37,202 nucleotides of DNA, taken from contig JAURJU010000034.1 of assembly GCA_030832085.1 (NCBI GenBank), positions 1 to 37,202 on the forward strand, written 5' to 3'. Below, one piece after another: positions 26,401-37,202 of the stretch. The notes beneath the pieces were generated by a model. It had not been told where the DNA came from. It saw nothing but the letters and a program-made list of their open reading frames with translations, and made no database searches. The DNA comes from Chitinophagales bacterium. GTDB lineage: Bacteria > Bacteroidota > Bacteroidia > Chitinophagales > Chitinophagaceae. The position numbers were made by a program, and so were the translations under genes. Position 1 is the first letter of the stretch. Every line of letters begins with the position of its first letter.

Positions 26401-27231
26401 ATGGATATACGGTTTGCCATTGGGAAAAACGAGACAAAAGCATTGGACACGAACGGGTTGCGGGAGAACTTCCTTGTAAGCGATCTTTTTCAGGCAGACA
26501 AGTTGAACCTGACGTATTCTCATTACGACAGGATGATTATTGGTGGTGTGTTGCCAGTGAAAAAATCCATCACCCTTTCCAATCCCGCCGAATTGCGCGC
26601 TGAATATTTTTTGGAAAGAAGGGAGCTTGGGATCATCAACATTGGCGGTAAGGGAGAGATATTGGTAGATGGAAAAAAACATGCACTCAAGAAATTGGAA
26701 TGCCTGTATGTAGGCAAGGGTGCAAAAAAAATAACATTCAGCTCCGCAGATAAAAAAGCCCCAGCAAAATATTATCTGCTTTCTGCTCCCGCACACCATG
26801 CACACCCTACAAAAAAATTCACGAAGGAAGATGCTTCCCCGGTTGAGTTGGGCGATGCATCCACTTCAAACAAAAGAACTGTGTACAAGTACATCCACAG
26901 GGATGGCATACAAAGTTGTCAGTTGGTGATGGGCCTTACTGTCCTTGAAAAGGGAAGTGTTTGGAATTCTGTTCCTCCCCATACCCATACCCGCAGAATG
27001 GAAGTATATCTATATTTTGATCTTGATGCTGCACAACGGCTTTTCCATTTTATGGGTGAGCCCCAGGAAACCCGTCATCTTGTTATGGCCAATGATGAGG
27101 CTGTGATTTCAGCCCCTTGGAGCATGCATTTCGGAAGCGGCACATCCAACTATTCATTCATTTGGGGCATGGCTGGTGAAAACCTTGACTATACAGACAT
27201 GGACCCAGCGCCCATTCCAACATTGAAATAA
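26401..27231 (+). CDS. kduI: 5-keto-4-deoxyuronate isomerase KduI
   Basis: A 276-residue double-cupin zinc enzyme. The metal ligands match those of the E. coli protein: H194 and H196 in PPHTHTRRM, E201, and H243 in WSMHFGSG. It isomerises 4-deoxy-L-threo-5-hexosulose uronate, the product of unsaturated uronate from pectin or glycosaminoglycan lyases, to 3-deoxy-D-glycero-2,5-hexodiulosonate. KduI of E. coli has also been reported to act on glucuronate and galacturonate, which could matter here because no uronate isomerase (UxaC) is in the window. First gene of the plus-strand catabolic operon. Confidence 0.95.
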   Translation: MDIRFAIGKNETKALDTNGLRENFLVSDLFQADKLNLTYSHYDRMIIGGVLPVKKSITLSNPAELRAEYFLERRELGIINIGGKGEILVDGKKHALKKLECLYVGKGAKKITFSSADKKAPAKYYLLSAPAHHAHPTKKFTKEDASPVELGDASTSNKRTVYKYIHRDGIQSCQLVMGLTVLEKGSVWNSVPPHTHTRRMEVYLYFDLDAAQRLFHFMGEPQETRHLVMANDEAVISAPWSMHFGSGTSNYSFIWGMAGENLDYTDMDPAPIPTLK

Positions 27232-27262
27232 TCATTCAACAAGAACCAATAAATACATCAAC

Positions 27263-28288
27263 ATGTCTAAGAAAGTTGTAACCCTTGGAGAGATCATGCT
27301 CCGTTTGTCAACACCTGATTTCAAGCGTTTTGTTCAGGCCGATACTTTTGATATCACCTATGGTGGTGGTGAAGCCAATGTTGCCGCAGCCTTGTGCAAT
27401 TATGGCTTGAACGGTACTTTTGTAACAAAGGTTCCAAACAATCCAATCGGTCAATCTGCCATCAACCATCTTCGCCGTTATGGCGTGGATACGCAGTTCA
27501 TCGCAAGGGGTGGTGACAGGCTGGGCATATACTTTTTGGAGACGGGTGCTTCCATGAGGCCTTCACAGGTGGTCTATGACAGGGCTGGTGCATCCATCGC
27601 TGATGTTGATCCTTCTGCGTTTGACTTTGACAAAATCCTGGACGGAGCAGAATGGTTTCATACAACAGGTATCACTCCTGCATTGTCCGACAAGGCTGCA
27701 GCATTGACCGAAGCAGCGCTGAAGGCAGCAAAGGCCAAGGGAATCACCACGAGCATTGATCTGAACTACCGCAAGAAGTTGTGGAGCAAGGAAAAGGCAA
27801 GAGAAGTAATGACAAGGCTTTGCCAGTATGTTGACGTGTGCATCGGAAACGAGGAAGATGCCGATACCACCCTTGGTTTCAAGGCAAAGGACACCGATGT
27901 TACCAAAGGTGAATTGGACCTTGATGGTTTCAAGGATGTTTTCAAGCAAATGAAAGAAAAATTCGGTTTCAAGTACATCGCTTCGTCTTTGCGTGAAAGC
28001 CACAGTGCAAGTGACAATGGTTGGAGTGCACTTGTGTACGATGGTACTGAATTCTACCATACCAAAAAATACAACGTGCGCATTGTTGACCGTGTGGGAA
28101 GTGGCGACAGTTTTGCCAGTGGATTGATTTACGGCCTTGTTACAGGTATGCCGATGTCAGAGGCGGCAGAATTTGGCGTTGCTGCAAGTGCCATAAAACA
28201 TACCATCCCCGGAGACCTTAACCATGCCACTTTGGGCGAGGTGAAGGACCTGATGAAGGGTGATGGAAGTGGAAGGGTTCAGCGATAA
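27263..28288 (+). CDS. kdgK: 2-keto-3-deoxygluconate kinase (PfkB family)
   Basis: A 341-residue ribokinase/PfkB sugar kinase. The N-terminal substrate region has GGGEANVAAALCNYG, and the C-terminal PfkB signature DRVGSGDSFASGLIYG contains the catalytic aspartate and anion hole. The MRPSQVVYDRAGASIA stretch is typical of KDG kinases. It phosphorylates KDG to KDPG with ATP, joining the UxuA product to the Eda aldolase encoded two genes downstream. 31 nt after kduI. Confidence 0.92.
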   Translation: MSKKVVTLGEIMLRLSTPDFKRFVQADTFDITYGGGEANVAAALCNYGLNGTFVTKVPNNPIGQSAINHLRRYGVDTQFIARGGDRLGIYFLETGASMRPSQVVYDRAGASIADVDPSAFDFDKILDGAEWFHTTGITPALSDKAAALTEAALKAAKAKGITTSIDLNYRKKLWSKEKAREVMTRLCQYVDVCIGNEEDADTTLGFKAKDTDVTKGELDLDGFKDVFKQMKEKFGFKYIASSLRESHSASDNGWSALVYDGTEFYHTKKYNVRIVDRVGSGDSFASGLIYGLVTGMPMSEAAEFGVAASAIKHTIPGDLNHATLGEVKDLMKGDGSGRVQR

Positions 28289-28330
28289 ACCAAATCTTCA
28301 AGACGCCTCGTAGGATAAAAAAATAGAAAA

Positions 28331-28780
28331 ATGATCATCGAATCAATAGAAAACGCATCAAAATACACCAGCATTCATCCCTTGTTTGCACAGGCTTTCG
28401 AATACATACGCAACACGGATTTGGCAGCAATTGAAATTGGAAAATATCAAATTGCTGAGGGCCTCTTGGCCATTGTGTCCAATAAAAAAGGCATGACTGC
28501 TGAAGAATCAACTGCTAAATTTGAATGCCACAATGCCAACATTGACATTCAATATTGCATCAGCGGTGTTGAGACATTGGGCTGGAAGCCACGCCAGTCT
28601 TGCAAGTCAGAGCGAGAGCCTTACAATCTCGAGAAGGATGTACTTTTCTATACCGATAAGCCTGACATGTTTTTCCAATTGTCAGATGGTCAATTTGCCA
28701 TCTTTTTTCCGGAGGATGTTCATGCCCCAATGATCGGGGAGGGCGAGATCAAAAAACTGGTGATCAAGGTAAAAATCTAA
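28331..28780 (+). CDS. YhcH/YjgK/YiaL family protein
   Basis: A 149-residue cupin-like protein of the YhcH/YiaL/EbgC family. The signature is KFECHNANIDIQYCISG, matching the family pattern ExHxxxIDIQ, followed by a C-terminal FFPEDVHAP with another metal-type histidine. Members are found in sialic acid, uronate and beta-galactosidase operons and are thought to act as sugar anomerases or isomerases. Here it lies between kdgK and eda, which suggests help with uronate or keto-sugar conversion. The precise reaction is not known. Confidence 0.9.
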   Translation: MIIESIENASKYTSIHPLFAQAFEYIRNTDLAAIEIGKYQIAEGLLAIVSNKKGMTAEESTAKFECHNANIDIQYCISGVETLGWKPRQSCKSEREPYNLEKDVLFYTDKPDMFFQLSDGQFAIFFPEDVHAPMIGEGEIKKLVIKVKI

Positions 28781-28823
28781 GGGACCTGCCCATGGGCCCC
28801 AATGGCAAACATAAAAAAATCTG

Positions 28824-29489
28824 ATGATGACAAGTGCTAAAGTTGTTTTGGACGCAATCGTTGCGCAGGGAATGCTTCCCCTTTATTTCAATCCTGACGA
28901 ATCCGTTAGTGTAGAAATCCTCCGTGCCCTTCACCGATCAGGGGTTGTGGCCGTTGAATACACCAACCGTGGAGATGCTGCGTTGCAGAACTTTGGGAAA
29001 TTGGTGGAGGTGCGCAATGCAGAAATGCCAGGCATGTTGCTCGGCGTTGGCACCATCAAGAACATGCAGCAGGCTTCAGCTTATCTAGCAGCAGGAGCCG
29101 ATTTTTTGGTCAGCCCAGGCTATATTGCGGACGTCGCTGCGCATTGTGTTGAAAATGATATTTTCTTTGGCCCGGGCTGCATGACACCTACTGATATCAT
29201 CGCTGCCGAAAACGCAGGAATTAAATTCATCAAATTGTTTCCTGGCAACTTGCTTGGGCCTGAGTTCATGAGCAGCATCAAGGAAATCTTTCCCAAGCTG
29301 GTCTTCATGCCTACAGGAGGTGTTGACACCACCCGTGAAAGCATCGAGGGTTGGTTCAAGGCAGGAGTAAGTGCTGTTGGAATGGGCAGCAAGCTCGTCA
29401 GCAAAAAACTCATGGAATCCCGTGACTATACAGCAATTGAAAACAATTCCAGACAAGTGTTGGAGTTGATCAGCTCGATCAAAGGTTAA
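28824..29489 (+). CDS. eda: 2-dehydro-3-deoxy-phosphogluconate (KDPG) aldolase
   Basis: A 221-residue class I aldolase barrel. Visible are GVVAVEYTNRG with the proton-transfer glutamate, GVGTIKNMQQA, ADFLVSPG, GCMTPTDI, the Schiff-base lysine in FIKLFPGN, and FMPTGGVD. It splits KDPG to pyruvate and glyceraldehyde 3-phosphate, the last step of the uronate route. The start is one of two adjacent ATGs (28824 or 28827). It sits 43 nt after the YhcH-type gene and 9 nt before an exported hydrolase. Confidence 0.94.
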   Translation: MMTSAKVVLDAIVAQGMLPLYFNPDESVSVEILRALHRSGVVAVEYTNRGDAALQNFGKLVEVRNAEMPGMLLGVGTIKNMQQASAYLAAGADFLVSPGYIADVAAHCVENDIFFGPGCMTPTDIIAAENAGIKFIKLFPGNLLGPEFMSSIKEIFPKLVFMPTGGVDTTRESIEGWFKAGVSAVGMGSKLVSKKLMESRDYTAIENNSRQVLELISSIKG

Positions 29490-29498
29490 ATTGTTCAC

Positions 29499-30410
29499 AT
29501 GTCAAAACCATTGCTTTCCTCATTCATATTCTCGTTGATGATGTCACTGAATGCAGATGCCCAGTACGAACCATTGTACAAGAAAACGATTCCCAATTTT
29601 ATCGAATCGGTCAATGAGGAATCGGAAGCCGTTACAGGAGGCATTCTGCGGATTTCAAAAGTGTCGGTTCCGGGATACGCTTTTTTCAGTGCGGGCAAGG
29701 AAGGTGGTGTCAAACCATGTGTGATCATTTGCCCAGGCGGTGGATATGGTATTTTGGCTGCTCAACACGAGGGTACGGATGTTGCCAAATATTTCAATTC
29801 CATTGGAGTGCATGCGCTTGTGCTTAAATACAGAATTCCTTCATCAAAGCATCAAAACCACAAGGAAATTGCGCCGCTTCAGGATGCCCAGCAGGCCATA
29901 TTCATGGTGAGGAAAAATGCCAAAAAATGGGGAATTGACGCTGCAAAGGTAGGTATCATGGGCTTTTCAGCTGGAGGTCATCTTGCATCATCTTTAGCGG
30001 TTCACCATGATGATCCCAAAAATAAATTCAAAGGAACCGTTTCATTGCGCCCCGATTTTCAGGTATTGATTTATCCTGTCATCAGCTTTGAAAAATTTGC
30101 CCACCTGGGCTCTAGGAACAACTTGTTGAGTCCGGATACAACGGCCAGCCTCATCAAGTATTACTCTAGTGAACTCCAGGTCAATGAAAAAACTCCTCCT
30201 GCATTTTTGGTGCATGCCAAGGACGACAAGGCTGTTCCCATCGAAAATTCGCAGATGTATTTGTCTGCCCTCAAAGCACACGGAGTTGCCGGAGAACTGT
30301 ATGTTTATGAAAAAGGGGGTCACGGTTTTGGGATGAACAACAAGACCAGTGAAGTAAAGTGGACGGACCTCCTGGCCAAATGGATGCAGCAAACAAAAAT
30401 CATCCCTTAA
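29499..30410 (+). CDS. Exported alpha/beta hydrolase, acetyl-esterase type
   Basis: A 303-residue alpha/beta-hydrolase with a signal peptide ending near residue 21 (LNADA-Q). The oxyanion segment is CPGGGYGILA, the nucleophile elbow is GFSAGGH, and the acid and base are in HAKDDKAVP and KGGHGFGM. The architecture resembles the carbohydrate acetyl esterases associated with xylan and pectin. It is the last gene of the uronate operon, 9 nt after eda, so removal of acetyl groups from an incoming oligosaccharide is a sensible guess. Its stop codon shares a TTAA with the stop of the opposing transporter gene. Confidence 0.87.
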   Translation: MSKPLLSSFIFSLMMSLNADAQYEPLYKKTIPNFIESVNEESEAVTGGILRISKVSVPGYAFFSAGKEGGVKPCVIICPGGGYGILAAQHEGTDVAKYFNSIGVHALVLKYRIPSSKHQNHKEIAPLQDAQQAIFMVRKNAKKWGIDAAKVGIMGFSAGGHLASSLAVHHDDPKNKFKGTVSLRPDFQVLIYPVISFEKFAHLGSRNNLLSPDTTASLIKYYSSELQVNEKTPPAFLVHAKDDKAVPIENSQMYLSALKAHGVAGELYVYEKGGHGFGMNNKTSEVKWTDLLAKWMQQTKIIP

Positions 30411-31336
30411 GAAGAGGTCTTCTTGCTTTTTCTTGATGTAATCCAGACCCCTGCAATGATCAGCAGGCCTGCTGCAATTTTCAAGGATGTAAATTGTTCT
30501 CCCATCAGCATGACGGCACCAAGCGTACCAAACAATGGTTGAAAGTAAACAAAGCTTCCCGTCTTTGATGGTCCCCATTTCATTACTCCCCAGTTCATGA
30601 GGATGTTGGACAGCAATGTTCCCAAGATGATGACATGAAAAATCGCATACCAGCTTGTTCCATTGAATTTGTCCCATGCGGCATCCATGAATCCTTCGAG
30701 GCAAAATGGAATGCTGAAGACAGTTCCAAAAAGAAAAACAAAACGAAGTATTGTCAGGGGAGTGTACCTGGTGGAAATGCGCCTCATTAGGATGAGGTAG
30801 GTTGAGTAGCAGACGGATGCAAGCAATACAAACAAATCACCCCTGATGCTCGCCTCATTGTTTCCGATGGTACTTTTTCTCCCACTGATGAGGATGATTG
30901 CACCTGCCAATCCGAGCAACAATCCAATGAGATTGTTCATGCCAAATTTTTCTTTTATGAATATGGTGGCAAGCAGTGTAACGATAATTGGCGTTGCCAT
31001 GTTGAGCAGGGACGCATTGATGGGATTGGTTGATGCAATCCCCATGATGGAAAGAATTTGATTGCAGGTAATTCCCAGAAAACCTGCTAAAATTAAAAGT
31101 GGATAATCTGAACGAAGTATTCTCTCTTTTGGTTTGATGAAGATTGGGATGGTCAGCAAGACAAGTGCACTGACAAACATCCTTGCAAAAGACAAACCAA
31201 GTGGACTGATCAGGGAAGGGGAGACCAGTTTTACGGCGATGACATTGGTGCCATAGAAAAAGTTGGCGGCCACAAGTGCGGCCGCCGTTTTAAAGTCATC
31301 TGTTTTCGGATGGTCAGTATTTGAATACCTTTCCAC
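30407..31336 (-). CDS. EamA/DMT-family transporter
   Basis: A 309-residue inner-membrane protein with about ten hydrophobic helices arranged as two EamA repeats (about 15-145 and 160-300), for example LVLLTIPIFI, IGLLLGLAGAIILISG and AAGLLIIAGVWITSRKSK at the C-terminus. Members of the family export or import small metabolites. Position suggests a uronate or keto-sugar, but nothing in the sequence fixes the substrate. The start is a GTG at 31336 lying 23 nt inside the end of the upstream oxidoreductase gene, which implies translational coupling. No in-frame ATG exists before the first helix. Last gene of the minus operon. Confidence 0.88.
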   Translation of the reverse strand: MERYSNTDHPKTDDFKTAAALVAANFFYGTNVIAVKLVSPSLISPLGLSFARMFVSALVLLTIPIFIKPKERILRSDYPLLILAGFLGITCNQILSIMGIASTNPINASLLNMATPIIVTLLATIFIKEKFGMNNLIGLLLGLAGAIILISGRKSTIGNNEASIRGDLFVLLASVCYSTYLILMRRISTRYTPLTILRFVFLFGTVFSIPFCLEGFMDAAWDKFNGTSWYAIFHVIILGTLLSNILMNWGVMKWGPSKTGSFVYFQPLFGTLGAVMLMGEQFTSLKIAAGLLIIAGVWITSRKSKKTSS

Positions 31337-32669
31337 CAGCCATTACTTCTTGTGTTTTTTCATCGAAAGTCACTTTCTCTCCGGTTCTTGCAGCAGCATT
31401 TGACATGATGGTTGCAATGGAGTGGCTGTATCCCGCTTCCACAGGGGCATTGGTTTGTTTTCTACTTCTGATGCATTCCATCCAGTTGCGAACATGCGCC
31501 GAGGTCAGGGGATCACTTCCTGTGTTTGCACCTGATTCAACCTTGACCGCTTTATCAGTAAGGTTCATTTCAGGGAGCAATACTGCTTTCATTCCCATTG
31601 GTTTTGCAAACTTTTCGGTCAGTCCTCCTTTGGGCGAAACCTTGTTGTTGATAAGGTTCAATTCTCCACCAACACTATAGTATACTTCACTGGCGTTGTC
31701 ATCGCCATTGTGCATCCGCGACATGAATACAACCTGGAATCCTTTGGACAGGTCGTCAGCAGGACCATAATCGAATACTGCAGTGGTGGTATCCCAGTTT
31801 CTTCTTCCATCCTTCCACTGGTAAACACCTCCATTTGCAACAACACTTCTTGGATGCGACAATCCTGTAAACCAATGCACAGTATCAATTTGGTGGCTCA
31901 TCCACTGGCCTGGCATTCCGGAGGAATAAGGCCAGAACAAACGGTATTCAAGGTATTTGCGGGGGTCGAATTTTTCAAATGGCCTGTTCATCAAATAACG
32001 TTTCCAATCCAGGTCTTCTTCATGGCATTTTGCCACCAGGTCAGGCCTTCTCCACCTGCCGGGTTGGTTTACATTCCAGGTCAGTTCAACCATGGTGATG
32101 TCGCCAAACTGTCCAGACTTGATGAATTTTTCAGCTGCATGGTAGTTTGCACCTGACCTTCTTTGTGATCCCAGCTGAATGATCCTGTCTGAAGCCTTGG
32201 CAGCCTTTAATGCTGCACGGTTGTCTTCCATGGTTTCTGCAAAGGGCTTCTCTACATAAATGTCTTTGTTGGCTTTCAATGCCTCAATGGTGTGGAGCGC
32301 ATGCTGAAAGTCAGCGGTGGAAATCATCACTGCATCAATATCCTTCAGTGCATAGAGCTCGTCATTGTTTTTGCATCCAACAATATCATGCTGCATCTTG
32401 CTTTTAAGAAATTCAACGCCTTCATTTCTGCGCAATTTCCAAATGTCTGATACGGCAACAATGTCAAAATTGAGTTCCTTGTAGTGTTGCATGAAAGCAG
32501 GAATATGCGACTGCTTGTGCCTGTCTGAAAATCCTACAACACCAACCCTGACACGGTCATTGGCACCAAGAATATTTCCGTAAGATTTGGCTGTCCATCC
32601 CATGGAAGCCAGTGCAGTAGCTGCTGTTGCCTGTGCTGTTTGTTTGATGAATGTTCTGCGTTGGGTCAT
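31314..32669 (-). CDS. Tat-exported Gfo/Idh/MocA family oxidoreductase
   Basis: A 451-residue NAD(P)-dependent sugar oxidoreductase. The N-terminus QRRTFIKQTAQATAATAL is a twin-arginine signal, so it is exported folded with its cofactor. The Rossmann part has VGVVGFSDRH, ISTADFQHALHT and the EKPFAE motif. The C-terminal substrate half carries MPGQWMSHQIDTVHWF with the conserved histidine. Periplasmic Gfo/Idh enzymes beside DUF1080 proteins are linked to oxidation of glycosides at C3, giving 3-keto-sugars. The DUF1080 gene lies 22 nt upstream and the transporter overlaps its 3' end. Confidence 0.92.
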   Translation of the reverse strand: MTQRRTFIKQTAQATAATALASMGWTAKSYGNILGANDRVRVGVVGFSDRHKQSHIPAFMQHYKELNFDIVAVSDIWKLRRNEGVEFLKSKMQHDIVGCKNNDELYALKDIDAVMISTADFQHALHTIEALKANKDIYVEKPFAETMEDNRAALKAAKASDRIIQLGSQRRSGANYHAAEKFIKSGQFGDITMVELTWNVNQPGRWRRPDLVAKCHEEDLDWKRYLMNRPFEKFDPRKYLEYRLFWPYSSGMPGQWMSHQIDTVHWFTGLSHPRSVVANGGVYQWKDGRRNWDTTTAVFDYGPADDLSKGFQVVFMSRMHNGDDNASEVYYSVGGELNLINNKVSPKGGLTEKFAKPMGMKAVLLPEMNLTDKAVKVESGANTGSDPLTSAHVRNWMECIRSRKQTNAPVEAGYSHSIATIMSNAAARTGEKVTFDEKTQEVMAGGKVFKY

Positions 32670-32691: not shown

Positions 32692-34068
32692 TTACAATTC
32701 CTTGATTTTAATGCTCCTGTAGCTCACCTTATCTCCATGGTCCTGGATAAGGATTCTGCCTTTGGGCGCCATTCCAAAATTTTCTGCTTTGGCAAATTTA
32801 CTGCGGGCCACCAACGCATTGAAAATGGGAGTACCCCGCTTGTATTCTACCATTTTCCAACCATTCAACCAATGCTCTATGGTGCCGTCTGGATGTGCCA
32901 CAATGCGGCCGCGGTTCCATTGGCCGATGGGAATTCTGTCGCGCCTTGCTGCCTTCGGGTCGAGGCTTGGAGCGGCTGGAATCAGGTCATACAATGAAGC
33001 CATGGTCCTGTTTCCTCCTGCACCCATTTTGGCATCGGGATGTTTTGCATCATCCAGTACCTGGTACTCTGGGCCAACGCCAGATTTTTTATCGGGATGG
33101 GCAACTATAAAATACTTGATCCCTGAGTTGGCACTGTCTGTCAGTTTGAATTCAAATTGCAAATCAAAGGCACCATATTCTTTTTCTGTAATGATGTCAC
33201 CACCATCGGTGCTGTTGGATTCGTCTGCATTGCGGATGCTCAATTCGCCGTTTTCAATGGACCAGCCTTTTGAGGGAAATGCGGTGGTGTTCGCAGACTG
33301 CCAGCCTGCAGAAGTTTTGCCATCCCACAACAGTGAGTATCCTTGCTTGCTTTCTTCAGCCGATATGTTGTTGCTCAAAAGATTGACCACAAAAATATTG
33401 TCAGATGGAGAAGGCTTGAGATTGGTTGTCTTGATCCTGATGTTCTTCCAATGGATTTCCTTGCCTTCATCGGCTTTGTTGGATATGGCATGTACCTGCA
33501 GTGCAATGAATCCTTCTGGTGTCATGTCATCGATGATGTACGCGCAAGCGATTCCATTGATCCAGGTACGGATACTGTTACCGATGCATTCAATCTTGTA
33601 ATGGTTCCAATCCCTTGGCTTGAAGGCCTTTTGTGCACCCGTGTTGTACTCGAGTGGATAGAGCCAACCCCTTCTGGCTTCATCATAGATGCCACCGCTC
33701 CATGCCCTTGCAGAAGGGTCCACTTCCGCCTGGTAGCCCCTGACCCTGTCGGATACTTTGTTGTTACTGCCCTCGTTGGATGTAATGCTCCTGAATTGCA
33801 CACCCGAGTTCATGTCTGCAAACATTTTCAGGTCAAGCTCCAATACGAAATCACCGTATAGTTTTTCAGTTGCCAAAAAAGAGTTCGGTTCTCCATGCAC
33901 TGTTGTTCCAACAATTTCCCCATTTTTCACTTGGTACTTGGCCTTGCCATTCAACTGTTTGAAACCACTCAGGTCCTTGCCGTTGAAAAGGGATGTCCAT
34001 TCGCTTTTTTGCTGTGCCATTGCCAAGGTAAAAACAAGGCACGATAGGATTGTCAATTTGATTTTCAT
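32692..34068 (-). CDS. Exported protein with two DUF1080 (3-keto-disaccharide hydrolase) domains
   Basis: A 458-residue protein with signal peptide KIKLTILSCLVFTLAMAQ. Two copies of the concanavalin-like DUF1080 domain follow one another. Domain 1 is about 24-212, starting WTSLFNGKDLSGF with YGDFVLELDLKM and NSGVQFRS. Domain 2 is about 242-457, starting YSLLWDGKTSAGW with YGAFDLQFEFKL and NSGIKYFIV. DUF1080 proteins are associated with cleavage of 3-keto-glycosides made by Gfo/Idh oxidoreductases, one of which is encoded next. The start at 34068 is chosen because the longer frame (34098) overlaps the upstream gene and precedes the signal peptide. Gaps of 16 nt upstream and 22 nt downstream mark it as mid-operon. 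Confidence 0.92.
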   Translation of the reverse strand: MKIKLTILSCLVFTLAMAQQKSEWTSLFNGKDLSGFKQLNGKAKYQVKNGEIVGTTVHGEPNSFLATEKLYGDFVLELDLKMFADMNSGVQFRSITSNEGSNNKVSDRVRGYQAEVDPSARAWSGGIYDEARRGWLYPLEYNTGAQKAFKPRDWNHYKIECIGNSIRTWINGIACAYIIDDMTPEGFIALQVHAISNKADEGKEIHWKNIRIKTTNLKPSPSDNIFVVNLLSNNISAEESKQGYSLLWDGKTSAGWQSANTTAFPSKGWSIENGELSIRNADESNSTDGGDIITEKEYGAFDLQFEFKLTDSANSGIKYFIVAHPDKKSGVGPEYQVLDDAKHPDAKMGAGGNRTMASLYDLIPAAPSLDPKAARRDRIPIGQWNRGRIVAHPDGTIEHWLNGWKMVEYKRGTPIFNALVARSKFAKAENFGMAPKGRILIQDHGDKVSYRSIKIKEL

Positions 34069-34084
34069 ATGTGTAATTGTAATT

Positions 34085-34906
34085 TTATACTCCTCCAAAT
34101 GCTACAAAGCCGCCATCCACTCCGATGTCGGTGCCGTTCACAAACTTGGATGCGTCGCTCAGGAGATAGATCAGTGCACCAATCAATTCGTCGGGCTTGC
34201 CCATCCTGTTGTCTGGCGTTTTCTTGATCACAAGGTTCCCGCGTTCAGTATAGCTCCCATCCGGTTGTGTAAGCAGCGTCCTGTTTTGTTCCGTCAGAAA
34301 GAACCCAGGCATGATGGAATTGATCCGAATTGCATCCCCATGTCTTTTGGCTGTTTCCACCGCCATCCATTTCGTAAAGCAATCAACACCTGCCTTGCCA
34401 ATGCTGTATCCAAGTACTTTTGTGATGACCTGTTTTGCACTCACAGAAGAAATGTTGACGATGCTCCCGCCGTTCCCTTTTGCCATGCTTGCACCGATGA
34501 TTTTAGTGGGGATGATCGTTCCCATGAGGTTTAGGTCAAGTACCTGCCTTAATCCGTCAATGTTCATGTCAAACACATCCTGGTCTGGCTGGATCACACC
34601 CTGGGGCATGTTTCCTCCAGCACCGTTGACCAATCCATCAATCCTTCCAAACGTTTCCAGTGTCAGATCCCTGACTTTTTCCATGTCTTTTTCATCCAGC
34701 ACATTTCCCTTGACGAACAGGGCCCTGCCACCGTTGGCATTGATTTCTGCGGCACGCTTGTTTCCTTCCTCTTCATTTCTTCCAACGATGACGGCAGTAC
34801 CTCCAAACGATACGATTCCATCAATGAACGCTTTTCCCAAGATGCCTGTTCCTCCGGTGACTACAATCACCTTGTCTTTCAATGAGAACAATGTTGAATA
34901 ACCCAT
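34085..34906 (-). CDS. SDR oxidoreductase, probable D-mannonate/fructuronate reductase
   Basis: A 273-residue classical short-chain dehydrogenase. The NAD(P) motif is VTGGTGILG (17-24), NGAG is at 94-97, and the catalytic set is S154, Y167 and K171 (NISSVSAK, GYSIGKAG). Next to uxuA, proteins of this type reduce D-fructuronate to D-mannonate, replacing the unrelated UxuB. A KduD role (2,5-diketo-gluconate reduction) is less likely because KduD is shorter and has a different N-terminus, but the presence of kduI keeps it open. The 102-nt spacer to uxuA holds a small hairpin (GCGATG-AAAG-CATCGC, 34928-34943) in the SDR leader. Confidence 0.9.
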   Translation of the reverse strand: MGYSTLFSLKDKVIVVTGGTGILGKAFIDGIVSFGGTAVIVGRNEEEGNKRAAEINANGGRALFVKGNVLDEKDMEKVRDLTLETFGRIDGLVNGAGGNMPQGVIQPDQDVFDMNIDGLRQVLDLNLMGTIIPTKIIGASMAKGNGGSIVNISSVSAKQVITKVLGYSIGKAGVDCFTKWMAVETAKRHGDAIRINSIMPGFFLTEQNRTLLTQPDGSYTERGNLVIKKTPDNRMGKPDELIGALIYLLSDASKFVNGTDIGVDGGFVAFGGV

Positions 34907-35008: not shown

Positions 35009-36181
35009 CTAAAGGCCACTTCTCAAAATTCCCAATTGCAGCCCCCTGAGTTCAGCAAGTCCCCTCAATCTTCCGATGCAGGAATAACCTGGGTTTGTCA
35101 CTTTCTTGAGGTCATCGATCATCTGGTGTCCATGATCGGGTCTGAAAGAAATCTGGTTAGGAACTTCCTGTTGGATCTTTAGCAATTCTTTCATGACGGC
35201 ATACATGTCGGTGTCTCCACCCAAATGATCGTCTTCAAAGAAATTGCCTTCTGCATCACGCCTGGTATTCCTAAGGTGAACAAAGTGGATGCGGTTGCCC
35301 AGTGATCTGGCCATGGCCGGGAGGTCATTGTTCGGATTTGCGCCAAAGGATCCTGTGCAAAAGCAAACGCCGTTGCTTTTGTTGGGCACTGCATTGATGA
35401 TGAACTCAACATCTTCAATATTCTTGACGATTCTTGGGAGCCCGAGGATATCGATGGGCGGATCATCCGGATGGATGGCCAGTTCAAGTCCAAGCGCATC
35501 ACAAAGGGGCGTGATCTGTTGCAGGAAATAAACCAGGTTGCTCCGGAGTACATCCGCATTGATGTTGTCGTAACGCGAAAGTTTTTCGCGCATGTCTTCA
35601 ACGGTAATCTTTTTTTCACCGGGGATGCCGAACATCACAACGCCTGCAATTTTGTCGAGCTCTTCCTGGGTGTACGCTGCATGACGGGTTTCAGCCGCAG
35701 CAACAACTTCGGCAGGGTAGGCGGCTGCTGCATTTTTCCTTTGCAGGATGTAAATGTCAAATATTGCAAGGTCAACCCAGTTGAAGTAAAGTGCTTTTGA
35801 TCCATCTGGCATAACATAATCCAGGTTGGTTCTGGTCCAGTCGTTTACCGGCATGAAGTTGTAGGTAATGACCCGCAGTCCGGCCTTGGCCAAGTTGCGC
35901 AGACTCTCCATGTATTTTTCAATCCAGGATTGGTAATTTCCTGTCCTGGTTTTGATTTCTTCGTGGATGGTTACACTCTCTACCACATCCCAGCTAAGTC
36001 CATAGGATTCAATCAGGGCCTTTCTTTCCATGATCTCTTCATAGCTCCATACTTCACCATGCGGTACGTGGTGCAATGCAGTAACGATTCCAACGGCACC
36101 TGTTTGTTTGATGTCTTGCAATGAAACGGGGTCATTCGGACCAAACCATCTCCATGTTTGTCTCAGTTCTTTCATGTTCAT
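35009..36181 (-). CDS. uxuA: Mannonate dehydratase UxuA
   Basis: A 390-residue TIM-barrel dehydratase that turns D-mannonate into 2-keto-3-deoxygluconate. Family stretches are WRWFGPNDPVSLQDIKQTGA at the N-terminus, HHVPHGEVW, VITYNFMPVNDWTRT, LAIHPDDPP, NGVCFCTGSFGANP and FRPDHGHQM, which hold the His, Cys and Asp metal ligands. The ATG at 36181 overlaps the stop of the upstream plug-domain gene as ATGA, which supports this start over the ATG two codons later. Its product feeds KdgK and Eda on the opposite strand. Confidence 0.95.
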   Translation of the reverse strand: MNMKELRQTWRWFGPNDPVSLQDIKQTGAVGIVTALHHVPHGEVWSYEEIMERKALIESYGLSWDVVESVTIHEEIKTRTGNYQSWIEKYMESLRNLAKAGLRVITYNFMPVNDWTRTNLDYVMPDGSKALYFNWVDLAIFDIYILQRKNAAAAYPAEVVAAAETRHAAYTQEELDKIAGVVMFGIPGEKKITVEDMREKLSRYDNINADVLRSNLVYFLQQITPLCDALGLELAIHPDDPPIDILGLPRIVKNIEDVEFIINAVPNKSNGVCFCTGSFGANPNNDLPAMARSLGNRIHFVHLRNTRRDAEGNFFEDDHLGGDTDMYAVMKELLKIQQEVPNQISFRPDHGHQMIDDLKKVTNPGYSCIGRLRGLAELRGLQLGILRSGL

Positions 36182-36756
36182 TGTGTTATGATCTCTACTT
36201 TTTCAATGTTTCTTTTCAGTATTTCTTTTTTTCTGAGCAGAATACTGCTGTCTGTTTCCTTCCTGATGGATCCTGTGGCAATGGTCTTGCCATCTTTCCC
36301 GATAACCCTTAGTGCTGTCCCATTGCTGATAAAATATTGGTAGGCGGATTTGCTGTAGGTATTGATTGAAGGAGCGGCAGAATTGCTTCCTTTTTTGGTG
36401 ACAACAAGAATTACGCCTCCAAATCCTCTTGATCCATATGCAGCAGTTGCTGATTCATCCTTCAATACGGATACTGATGCAATATCCAAAGGGTTGAGTG
36501 ACGCGATATCTCCTTCATAGATGGCCTGATCAACCACAAACAGTGCAGCCACTTTTCCCTTCATGTTTCTTGCGTCACGCACAAAAACCTGTGGTGTTTT
36601 CATTCCAGCATTTGCGCCAATTTCAACACCGGGAATTGTTCGCAGCAAATCAAAAATATTCCTTGCCGCTCCACTGCTGATGTCCTGGGTGGTTTGGGCA
36701 AAGCTGCTCATATGCCCAACAAAAAATGCAATTAAACAGATCAGTTTACAGTTCAT
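36178..36756 (-). CDS. Orphan SusC/TonB-type plug-domain protein, no barrel
   Basis: A 192-residue exported protein with signal peptide NCKLICLIAFFVGHMSSFA. Residues 28-124 form a plug domain like that at the N-terminus of SusC receptors: NIFDLLRTIPGVEI, VFVRDARN, ALFVVDQ, SVSVLKDESATAAYGSRG and GVILVVTKKG. A linker and a small lysine-rich C-terminal segment (136-192, ending RNIEKVEIITQ) follow instead of a 22-strand barrel. No barrel sequence occurs on either side. The ATG overlaps the previous stop and the stop overlaps the uxuA ATG, both as ATGA, so it is a deliberate member of the operon and not a decayed receptor. Function unknown. Confidence 0.88.
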   Translation of the reverse strand: MNCKLICLIAFFVGHMSSFAQTTQDISSGAARNIFDLLRTIPGVEIGANAGMKTPQVFVRDARNMKGKVAALFVVDQAIYEGDIASLNPLDIASVSVLKDESATAAYGSRGFGGVILVVTKKGSNSAAPSINTYSKSAYQYFISNGTALRVIGKDGKTIATGSIRKETDSSILLRKKEILKRNIEKVEIITQ

Positions 36757-37202
36757 TTTTTTGTATTGGCCAATTCTTTGGCCTTGGTCGTAGTGAAATA
36801 TTTTGCCAACATGTTGGGTACTTCCCAGGAAGGCATGTTGTTGTTCTGAAGATAATCCAGGTATTTTTTGGTTACCTGTGCAAAATGGGATTCATGCCCA
36901 TCATTGTATTTTTCAGGAACACTGATGGTCCACCCGTTATTGGTTTTTACCAATGCGATACCAGGGAAGGTCTTGCTGATTTTTTGGATGGCCGCATTCA
37001 ATTTTTGTTCGAACGCCTCATCCATCTGCCTTTGGGTGATATACAGCGTGGGCTTGAAACTTTCTTCTTTGCCTTGGCGTATGATCAATGAAGCTTTGGA
37101 TCCCCGCATCAATGAATAATGTGTATCGCCCGTTCCTTCTGGTGCTTTGTAGTTCCAGACCACAGAAACCTTGGCATGAACGCCATTGATCTTGTATGTG
37201 AA
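36753..37202 (-). CDS. C-terminal part of a Gfo/Idh-type oxidoreductase, 5' end outside the window
   Basis: The frame is open to the window edge and gives 149 C-terminal residues with no start. The sequence VHAKVSVVWNYKAPEGTGDT followed by HYSLMRGSKASLIIRQG matches what I recall of the putative oxidoreductase C-terminal domain found at the end of some Bacteroidota Gfo/Idh proteins. An NAD-binding half should lie just outside the window. It would be a second sugar oxidoreductase in the same operon. Its stop codon overlaps the ATG of the plug-domain gene (ATGA). Confidence 0.75.
   Translation of the reverse strand, partial: FTYKINGVHAKVSVVWNYKAPEGTGDTHYSLMRGSKASLIIRQGKEESFKPTLYITQRQMDEAFEQKLNAAIQKISKTFPGIALVKTNNGWTISVPEKYNDGHESHFAQVTKKYLDYLQNNNMPSWEVPNMLAKYFTTTKAKELANTKK

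Follow-up and report, generated by a model that had tools for sequence, protein, structure and literature searches.

The minus strand of a 37,202-nucleotide contig from a Chitinophagales bacterium (this whole stretch of DNA is hereafter called the window) carries a gene for an intact, exported 192-residue protein composed of a signal peptide, a SusC-type plug domain, and a C-terminal domain with a predicted Hfq-like fold. Research on plugs has treated them as the moving gate within TonB-dependent transporters, where they are associated with a 22-stranded barrel. The protein described here has no barrel, and its homologues form a conserved family in two genera, where the gene accompanies ThuA in sugar-oxidation operons. 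The original prediction made for this DNA, which held that a standalone exported plug is wired into a sugar-acid operon, is supported by the conserved positions of these loci. It is tempting to speculate that the protein acts as a soluble accessory of the neighboring enzymes, although several other roles must be weighed.

Architecture of the plug-only protein

The open reading frame (36178..36756, minus strand, as are all features of the operon given below) begins with ATG and contains no internal stops. Residues 1-20 (36697..36756) make up a putative signal peptide, with the cut before Q21 placed by eye. A hydrophobic N-terminal stretch is present in 21 of 21 aligned homologues and is followed by A-Q or A-K in 20 of them, and no membrane anchor was seen behind it. 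The sole Pfam match in the protein is Plug (PF07715), which covers residues 22-115 (36412..36693) with E = 2.6e-11 and 44.4 bits against a cut-off of 23.9, and comparison with related SusC proteins reveals no TonB box in front of it. The NCBIfam SusC signature TIGR04057 spans residues 91-121 (47.5 bits; cut-off 46.2), and no barrel family matched any part of the 192 residues. The C-terminal domain (approximately residues 136-189; 36190..36351) is predicted by AlphaFold2 and Foldseek to be a helix followed by five strands in an Hfq/Sm-like fold. Finally, the gene shares an ATGA overlap with the upstream oxidoreductase gene (36753..36756) and another with uxuA (36178..36181). Thus, the earlier description of an exported plug protein of this size, without a barrel and overlapping both neighbors, is borne out by the intact frame, the Plug match, the signal-peptide-like start, and the overlaps visible in the sequence.

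Distribution and constraint

Homologues of nearly full length, 44-100% identical to the window protein, were found in 18 of the 41 genomes of its genus (E <= 1e-20), and their stop-to-stop frames of 190-242 aa contain no stops and are too short for a barrel. Matches were also obtained in 15 of 81 genomes of the sister genus. Three of these (G899, G922, and G945) were dropped as SusC proteins with frames of 757-1059, and 12 are plug-only proteins, 11 of them intact. The remaining copy (L165, from G918) is broken by two TAA stops, reflecting either natural loss or a sequence error; hence 29 of the 30 copies in both genera are free of stops. Among the 21 plug-only proteins that were aligned, identity to the window protein falls to 36%.

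Wider searches, most of which scored the best candidates per genome, gave a family-wide total of four matches at E <= 1e-30 among 244 genomes, two of them in the second genus. With a profile of the C-terminal tail, the phylum-wide search of 395 genomes yielded three matches, all in the same two genera, and the order-wide search of 298 genomes yielded nine, of which the five kept as plug-only proteins are again confined to these genera. The four dropped order-wide matches comprise G704, G715, and G755, along with G096, whose match spans 61 codons, is interrupted by three stops, and lies within another ORF. Of the first three, the one that was tested (L067:1501-2031, minus strand) combines CSD and S1 RNA-binding domains. 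The weak resemblance of its C-terminal part to the tail profile, together with the similar matches in L068 and L069 (E 2e-5 to 9e-5), is probably due to chance. Relatives were also found at 16 contig loci, but five of these (L037-L041) were excluded as weak; four lie in frames of 603-1143 aa and one is an M56 protein. The 11 named contigs with close relatives include six titled Chitinophagaceae or Chitinophaga MAGs and five with wider names. The window's own genome (2.89 Mb in 111 contigs) holds 38 plug-like places at E <= 1. Apart from the gene itself, 29 of these have E < 1e-3, with 28 in frames of 701 to 1135 aa, and contig C78 has a plug-like place in a 238-aa frame with a stop.

The median pairwise dN/dS among seven close members (Nei-Gojobori, computed with our own script) is 0.070 for the plug, 0.152 for the tail, and 0.096 for residues 22-192, and that of the signal peptide is 0.615. 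For comparison, the value is 0.022 for seven UxuA sequences and 0.038 for five sequences of the upstream oxidoreductase. Because the medians for plug and tail are this low, both domains are under purifying selection, less tightly than the adjoining enzymes. A chance or spurious ORF is ruled out by the low dN/dS and by the homologues in 18 of 41 genus genomes, and a frameshifted SusC is ruled out by frames too short for a barrel and a tail unlike a barrel start. Furthermore, the signs of a pseudogene are missing, given a dN/dS of 0.096, a tail free of barrel debris, and a single broken copy among 30. Neither of the two outcomes that the original prediction named as counting against it was observed: no homologue found lies in a barrel-length frame, and the positions of the gene are conserved rather than random.

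Relationship to one SusC family

Like SusC/RagA-type TonB-dependent transporters (PF07715, TIGR04056/TIGR04057), the protein has the plug sequence and the SusC signature. Unlike them, it starts with a signal peptide of its own, ends in an unrelated C-terminal domain, and lacks a CarboxypepD_reg domain, a TonB box, and a barrel. When a profile of 28 plug-only proteins was compared with SusC plugs, complete plugs of one SusC family scored 92.8-112.8 bits. Two paralogues of that family (G001 and G007) scored 90-93 bits, and none of 26 other SusC plugs from the window's genome exceeded 88.2 bits. A split SusC in L172 reached 70.1 bits on a partial plug. This neighboring SusC (L172:2421-5556, minus strand, from G888) is divided into two overlapping frames by a frameshift or an assembly error.

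In a maximum-likelihood tree of 86 plug domains, which drew a tool warning for its long branches and for having few columns (122) for so many rows, the 28 plug-only proteins fall on one branch (100/100). A fork with support of 99/95 unites this branch with the one SusC family and includes none of the 26 other own-genome plugs. The tree does not separate a position inside that family from one beside it, and the length of the plug-only branch is 0.85. The tree drew on every plug-only copy except L177 and the broken L165 (28 of 30) and on 27 of the 37 other plug-like places in the window's genome; the duplicate L002, the split SusC of L172, and SusC pieces without a plug were likewise left aside.

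The alignment also indicates where the two protein types diverge. Right before the plug, all 19 related SusC proteins compared (of 27 in the tree) carry a stretch like DVVVVGYGTQRKKDLTGAV, with the pattern [DE]VVV[VI]GYGT, which is a candidate TonB box. It is absent from 21 of 21 plug-only proteins compared, which begin, after their own signal peptide, directly behind the point where the SusC stretch ends. Residue R60 is kept in 28 of 28 plug-only proteins; residues fixed in SusC plugs (e.g., positions 61, 77, and 113 in the numbering of the window protein) are replaced in many of them. The natural reading of these comparisons is that one duplication would have kept the plug proper and dropped the CarboxypepD_reg domain, the TonB box, and the barrel.

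A SusC/SusD pair lies divergently beside the operon in nine of nine sister-genus loci that reach this place and in two of 12 such genus loci (G030 and G034), with the window counted through contig C96. Other members have the pair elsewhere in the genome, and the window's genome carries the related SusC on contig C92; no SusD was found in the window operon. A related SusC (54% or more) occurs in 13 of 18 plug-bearing genus genomes versus 7 of 23 others, with a Fisher p of 0.012 that ignores shared descent. This search scored the best candidates per genome, and of its 22 matches those in G001 and G007 (44% identity) were counted as paralogues rather than orthologues. The five plug-bearing genomes in which the SusC was not detected are G015 (74% complete), G040 (69%), G009 (87%), G005 (94%), and G010 (95%, in 10 contigs), and seven genus genomes have the related SusC and no plug-only gene. 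The earlier suggestion that the protein regulates a SusC pore encoded elsewhere has gained a concrete candidate, the putative parent SusC, but is weakened by those five genomes.

A predicted Hfq-like fold in the tail

The original prediction proposed that the structure of the C-terminal segment be modeled, and the models suggest a fold like that of Hfq. AlphaFold2, run on residues 126-192 alone (from 12 sequences), produced a helix and then five strands with a mean pLDDT of 83.2. A model of the whole protein has the same tail, for which ten-residue blocks across residues 141-190 have pLDDT values of 80-88, and a plug of more modest confidence (mean pLDDT of the whole 69.1, pTM 0.45). Among the 50 matches that Foldseek listed for the tail model in the PDB, 49 are Hfq (prob 1.00, TM 0.65-0.82, 11-23% identity) and the other is a designed small beta-barrel; the best E-value among those listed is 3.5e-3, with none below 0.001. 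The whole-protein model gave similar Hfq matches and also, through the plug, matches to a heme receptor and SusC chains.

Hfq is an RNA-binding protein that forms hexameric rings. The tail resembles the Hfq/Sm group (PF17209) in its helix and five-strand fold, as a matter of prediction, but unlike Hfq, the plug-only protein has a signal peptide and neither detectable sequence homology nor a Pfam Hfq match. Profiles built from 17 tails and from 11 real Hfq sequences, when compared by hhalign, gave prob 0.1, E 0.61, and a score of 7.8, which is under the mean of 200 column-shuffled controls (mean 9.7, maximum 16.0). Because this profile comparison fails, the likeness concerns a predicted fold and common ancestry is not supported; a true Hfq homologue is accordingly not supported at the sequence level. 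Pfam searches with 18 tails gave no Hfq match (two families were hit by one member each, best E 0.062), the tail had no matches among PDB sequences, and it bears no resemblance to the stretch behind the plug in related SusC proteins (hhalign prob 0.1). The lysine of the Hfq YKHA motif aligns by eye with K181, a residue not kept in the three aligned sister-genus members. RNA binding by the protein is unlikely by location because of the signal peptide. Hfq itself was not found in 41 genus genomes or 118 phylum genomes at the limits used, in a search that did find it in 5 of 14 control genomes.

Genomic context

Upstream of the plug-only gene is the C-terminal part of a Gfo/Idh-type oxidoreductase (36753..37202; PF16490 Oxidoreduct_C, E 3.7e-66), which is cut by the contig end. 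Downstream are genes for the mannonate dehydratase UxuA (35009..36181; TIGR00695, E 2.6e-145), an SDR of the D-mannonate oxidoreductase subfamily (34085..34906; NF006132), a DUF1080 / 3-keto-disaccharide hydrolase family protein with a signal peptide recognized by eye (32692..34098; PF06439), a Gfo/Idh oxidoreductase with a Tat-like N-terminus, also by eye (31314..32669; PF01408), and an EamA-family inner-membrane transporter (30407..31336; PF00892). Because the contig breaks inside the upstream oxidoreductase, the head of the operon, with ThuA and a Tat-type Gfo, lies outside the window. These genes and the upstream part of the oxidoreductase are carried by contig C96, whose first 379 bases (L132:1-379) overlap the last 379 bases of the window, ending at 37202, at 98% identity. 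Given this overlap, the assembly appears to have broken the operon at a point where strains differ.

Relatives of an MFS transporter, LacI, UxaC, KdgK, Eda, and KduI are encoded nearby. Given these neighbors, the cluster most likely serves hexuronates, the predicted substrates of the operon. Genes that match relatives of KduI, KdgK, and Eda, along with an esterase gene, occupy 26401-30410 of the plus strand, convergent to the operon, and form the remainder of the hexuronate route. ThuA, both Gfo types, the oxidoreductase, and the DUF1080 protein have export signals by eye, so these enzymes can share a compartment with the plug-only protein. The operon resembles the periplasmic 3-keto-glycoside pathway in its ThuA, Gfo/Idh, and DUF1080 proteins, whose families are linked to the breakdown of 3-keto-glycosides. 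The DUF1080 proteins BT2157 and CCNA_01705 are reported or proposed to be 3-keto-disaccharide hydrolases, in passages that mention no plug protein (PMC9007349).

Across 30 loci, the usual order is ThuA, Gfo (Tat type), the oxidoreductase with Oxidoreduct_C, and the plug-only protein. Behind the plug-only gene, loci of the genus continue with uxuA, SDR, often DUF1080, a second Gfo, and EamA, and those of the sister genus with SDR, uxaC, and others. The constant neighbor is ThuA, which is present in all 24 loci that reach its place (23 directly and the window via C96; six fall short), and the Oxidoreduct_C-type oxidoreductase is present in 26 of 30. A link to uxuA or DUF1080, as initially envisaged, did not hold. 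The uxuA gene comes next in 17 of 18 genus loci but in none of the 11 sister-genus loci in which the contig extends that far. In four genus loci (L050, L051, L052, and L056), SDR and the second Gfo have no DUF1080 gene between them. The layout of the 30 loci therefore rules out a strict partnership with UxuA or DUF1080. Synthesis of the protein had also been thought to be coupled to both neighbors. The upstream four-base overlap is indeed kept in all 18 genus loci (ATGA in 17 and GTGA in one) but occurs in only 1 of 12 sister-genus loci, which limits translational coupling to the genus; even there, the overlap with uxuA is kept in just 9 of 18 loci.

The upstream oxidoreductase might appear to be a better partner. 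Its orthologue (63% or more) is found in the same 18 genus genomes as the plug-only gene and in none of the 23 others, five of which have only a 48-56% relative. However, this co-occurrence is confounded by shared descent, and four of 12 sister-genus loci (G860, G888, G890, and G949) have ThuA and the plug-only gene without an Oxidoreduct_C oxidoreductase, which therefore cannot be the only partner. In G943 the oxidoreductase is present in a locus without plug and without ThuA. Thus, a strict partnership that is perfect in the genus fails in the sister genus and on contig C93 (see below). In G030 (L058), the plug-only gene stays with ThuA, Gfo, and the oxidoreductase in a locus that has lost uxuA, SDR, DUF1080, and the second Gfo, and in G949 (L173) it stays with ThuA alone.

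Some loci have the module without the plug-only gene. Contig C93 (L133, 3734 bases, in the G000 bin) carries ThuA, Gfo, the oxidoreductase, and then the first 26 codons of uxuA before it ends, with the plug-only gene missing. It is 88-90% identical to relatives and only 82% identical to the genome's own operon copy, and for the latter reason it probably belongs to a close relative of the window genome; a misassembly at the junction is possible. Other species of the genus (L230-L233) have ThuA, Gfo, the oxidoreductase, and a SusC/SusD pair without a plug-only gene, and L235 has the same three enzymes with neither a plug-only gene nor a SusC/SusD pair in the stretch read. Because these relatives run the ThuA/Gfo module without it, the plug-only protein is an added, probably useful, but dispensable part.

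Possible functions

We infer, as our best guess and one held with somewhat more doubt than conviction, that the plug-only protein may be a soluble periplasmic accessory of the ThuA/Gfo sugar-oxidation module. The constancy of ThuA, the low dN/dS, the single plug-only branch (100/100), and the cut-off TonB-box stretch all favor such a role. The plug would have been copied once from the related SusC, cut just behind the TonB box, and given a signal peptide at one end and the tail at the other. Lacking a TonB box, the periplasmic product should not be pulled by TonB, and lacking a barrel, it should not be a pore. Perhaps the plug retains part of its parent's surface for the imported glycoside and for partners, and the small beta-barrel tail might allow oligomerization or docking. 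The protein could then hand over or concentrate imported uronide for the exported ThuA/Gfo enzymes, acting as a booster rather than as an essential subunit. According to a review, the isolated FepA plug bound its ligand at 5 µM, with 100-fold lower strength than FepA, and had the behavior of an unfolded protein (PMC11658791). Binding by a free plug is therefore possible, with stability as the main weakness of the proposal. We consider it rather improbable that the protein is a new kind of soluble periplasmic adaptor in which a plug freed from pore and TonB is joined to a ring-forming Sm-fold domain turned extracytoplasmic assembly module, such that a multivalent ring of plugs would capture glycoside at the exit of the parent SusC and pass it to the periplasmic oxidizing enzymes.

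The main rival to the accessory role, unlikely in our estimation, is that the plug works in trans by entering or capping the pore of the related SusC or by competing with its resident plug, thereby tuning uptake without TonB. Such an activity would suit a protein whose closest relatives are the plugs of that family (92.8-112.8 bits; fork 99/95), whose operon lies beside the divergent SusC/SusD pair in nine of nine sister-genus and two of 12 genus loci that reach it, and whose R60 is kept in 28 of 28 members. It is harder to reconcile with the five of 18 plug-bearing genus genomes in which the SusC went undetected (some are incomplete, but G010 is among them), with seven genomes that have the SusC and no plug-only gene, and with the replacement of SusC-fixed positions such as 61, 77, and 113 in many plug-only proteins. 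Alternatively, the tail might form an Hfq/Sm-like ring, a periplasmic scaffold that arrays the ThuA/Gfo enzymes and uses the plug only as a docking knob. This is likewise unlikely, although 49 of the 50 PDB matches listed for the tail are Hfq (prob 1.00, TM 0.65-0.82) and Hfq is known to form hexameric rings; the tail has no sequence relation to Hfq (7.8 versus a shuffled mean of 9.7), the best Foldseek E-value among the listed matches is 3.5e-3, and small beta-barrels of the Sm fold need not form rings.

We disfavor, as quite improbable, the view that the gene is a selfish or decaying remnant of a SusC duplication that is carried along only by its position in the operon. The copy broken by two TAA stops in G918, the absence of the gene from the close relative's contig C93, and the several genus species with the module and no plug-only gene are what a remnant would lead one to expect. 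However, several observations argue against decay: the median dN/dS is 0.07 for the plug and 0.15 for the tail; 29 of 30 copies are free of stops, with identities to the window protein as low as 36% among the 21 aligned; and the tail is conserved and is not barrel debris (hhalign prob 0.1). Least probable of all, to the point of being only a slim chance, is a sensor that would read a periplasmic sugar via the plug and pass a signal via the tail. A barrel-free plug fragment does occur in a receptor-like Prolixibacteraceae protein (L038; Plug 17.6 bits, under the cut-off of 23.9), but the signal peptide is not visibly followed by a membrane anchor, the operon proteins scanned include no sigma or anti-sigma family, and the nearby LacI regulator could perform the regulation.

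Novelty and related proteins

The plug and the Sm-like fold are each known already. What we have not found described in the open-access literature is a plug-only SusC relative, a fusion of a plug to an Hfq-like fold, the loss of the TonB box, or the fixed place behind ThuA. A barrel-free plug without a TonB box that is maintained by selection would show what plugs can do on their own, be it sugar binding, partner docking, or pore regulation in trans. Moreover, the parent SusC and its offspring plug would be open to comparison, in some species within one locus. A protein that combines a signal peptide with an Hfq-like fold would put this fold to an unexpected use, in a phylum where Hfq was not found among 118 sampled genomes. 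The plug-only gene might also serve as a marker within the poorly understood ThuA/Gfo/DUF1080 pathway.

Two other proteins touch on the use of plugs outside barrels. The Prolixibacteraceae protein noted above (L038:701-2407, 568 aa) is an M56-type, receptor-like protein with the order M56, CarbopepD_reg, partial Plug (under the Pfam cut-off), and TonB_C. Like the plug-only protein, it uses a plug piece outside a barrel; unlike it, the fragment sits in a larger protein with M56, CarbopepD_reg, and TonB_C domains. Approximately 10 kb upstream of the operon, L132:13153-15564 (minus strand) encodes an 803-aa protein with a signal-peptide-like start. This protein matches MG2 weakly, below the Pfam cut-off, contains a stretch that weakly resembles a plug (E 0.03), and is perhaps a further barrel-free plug.
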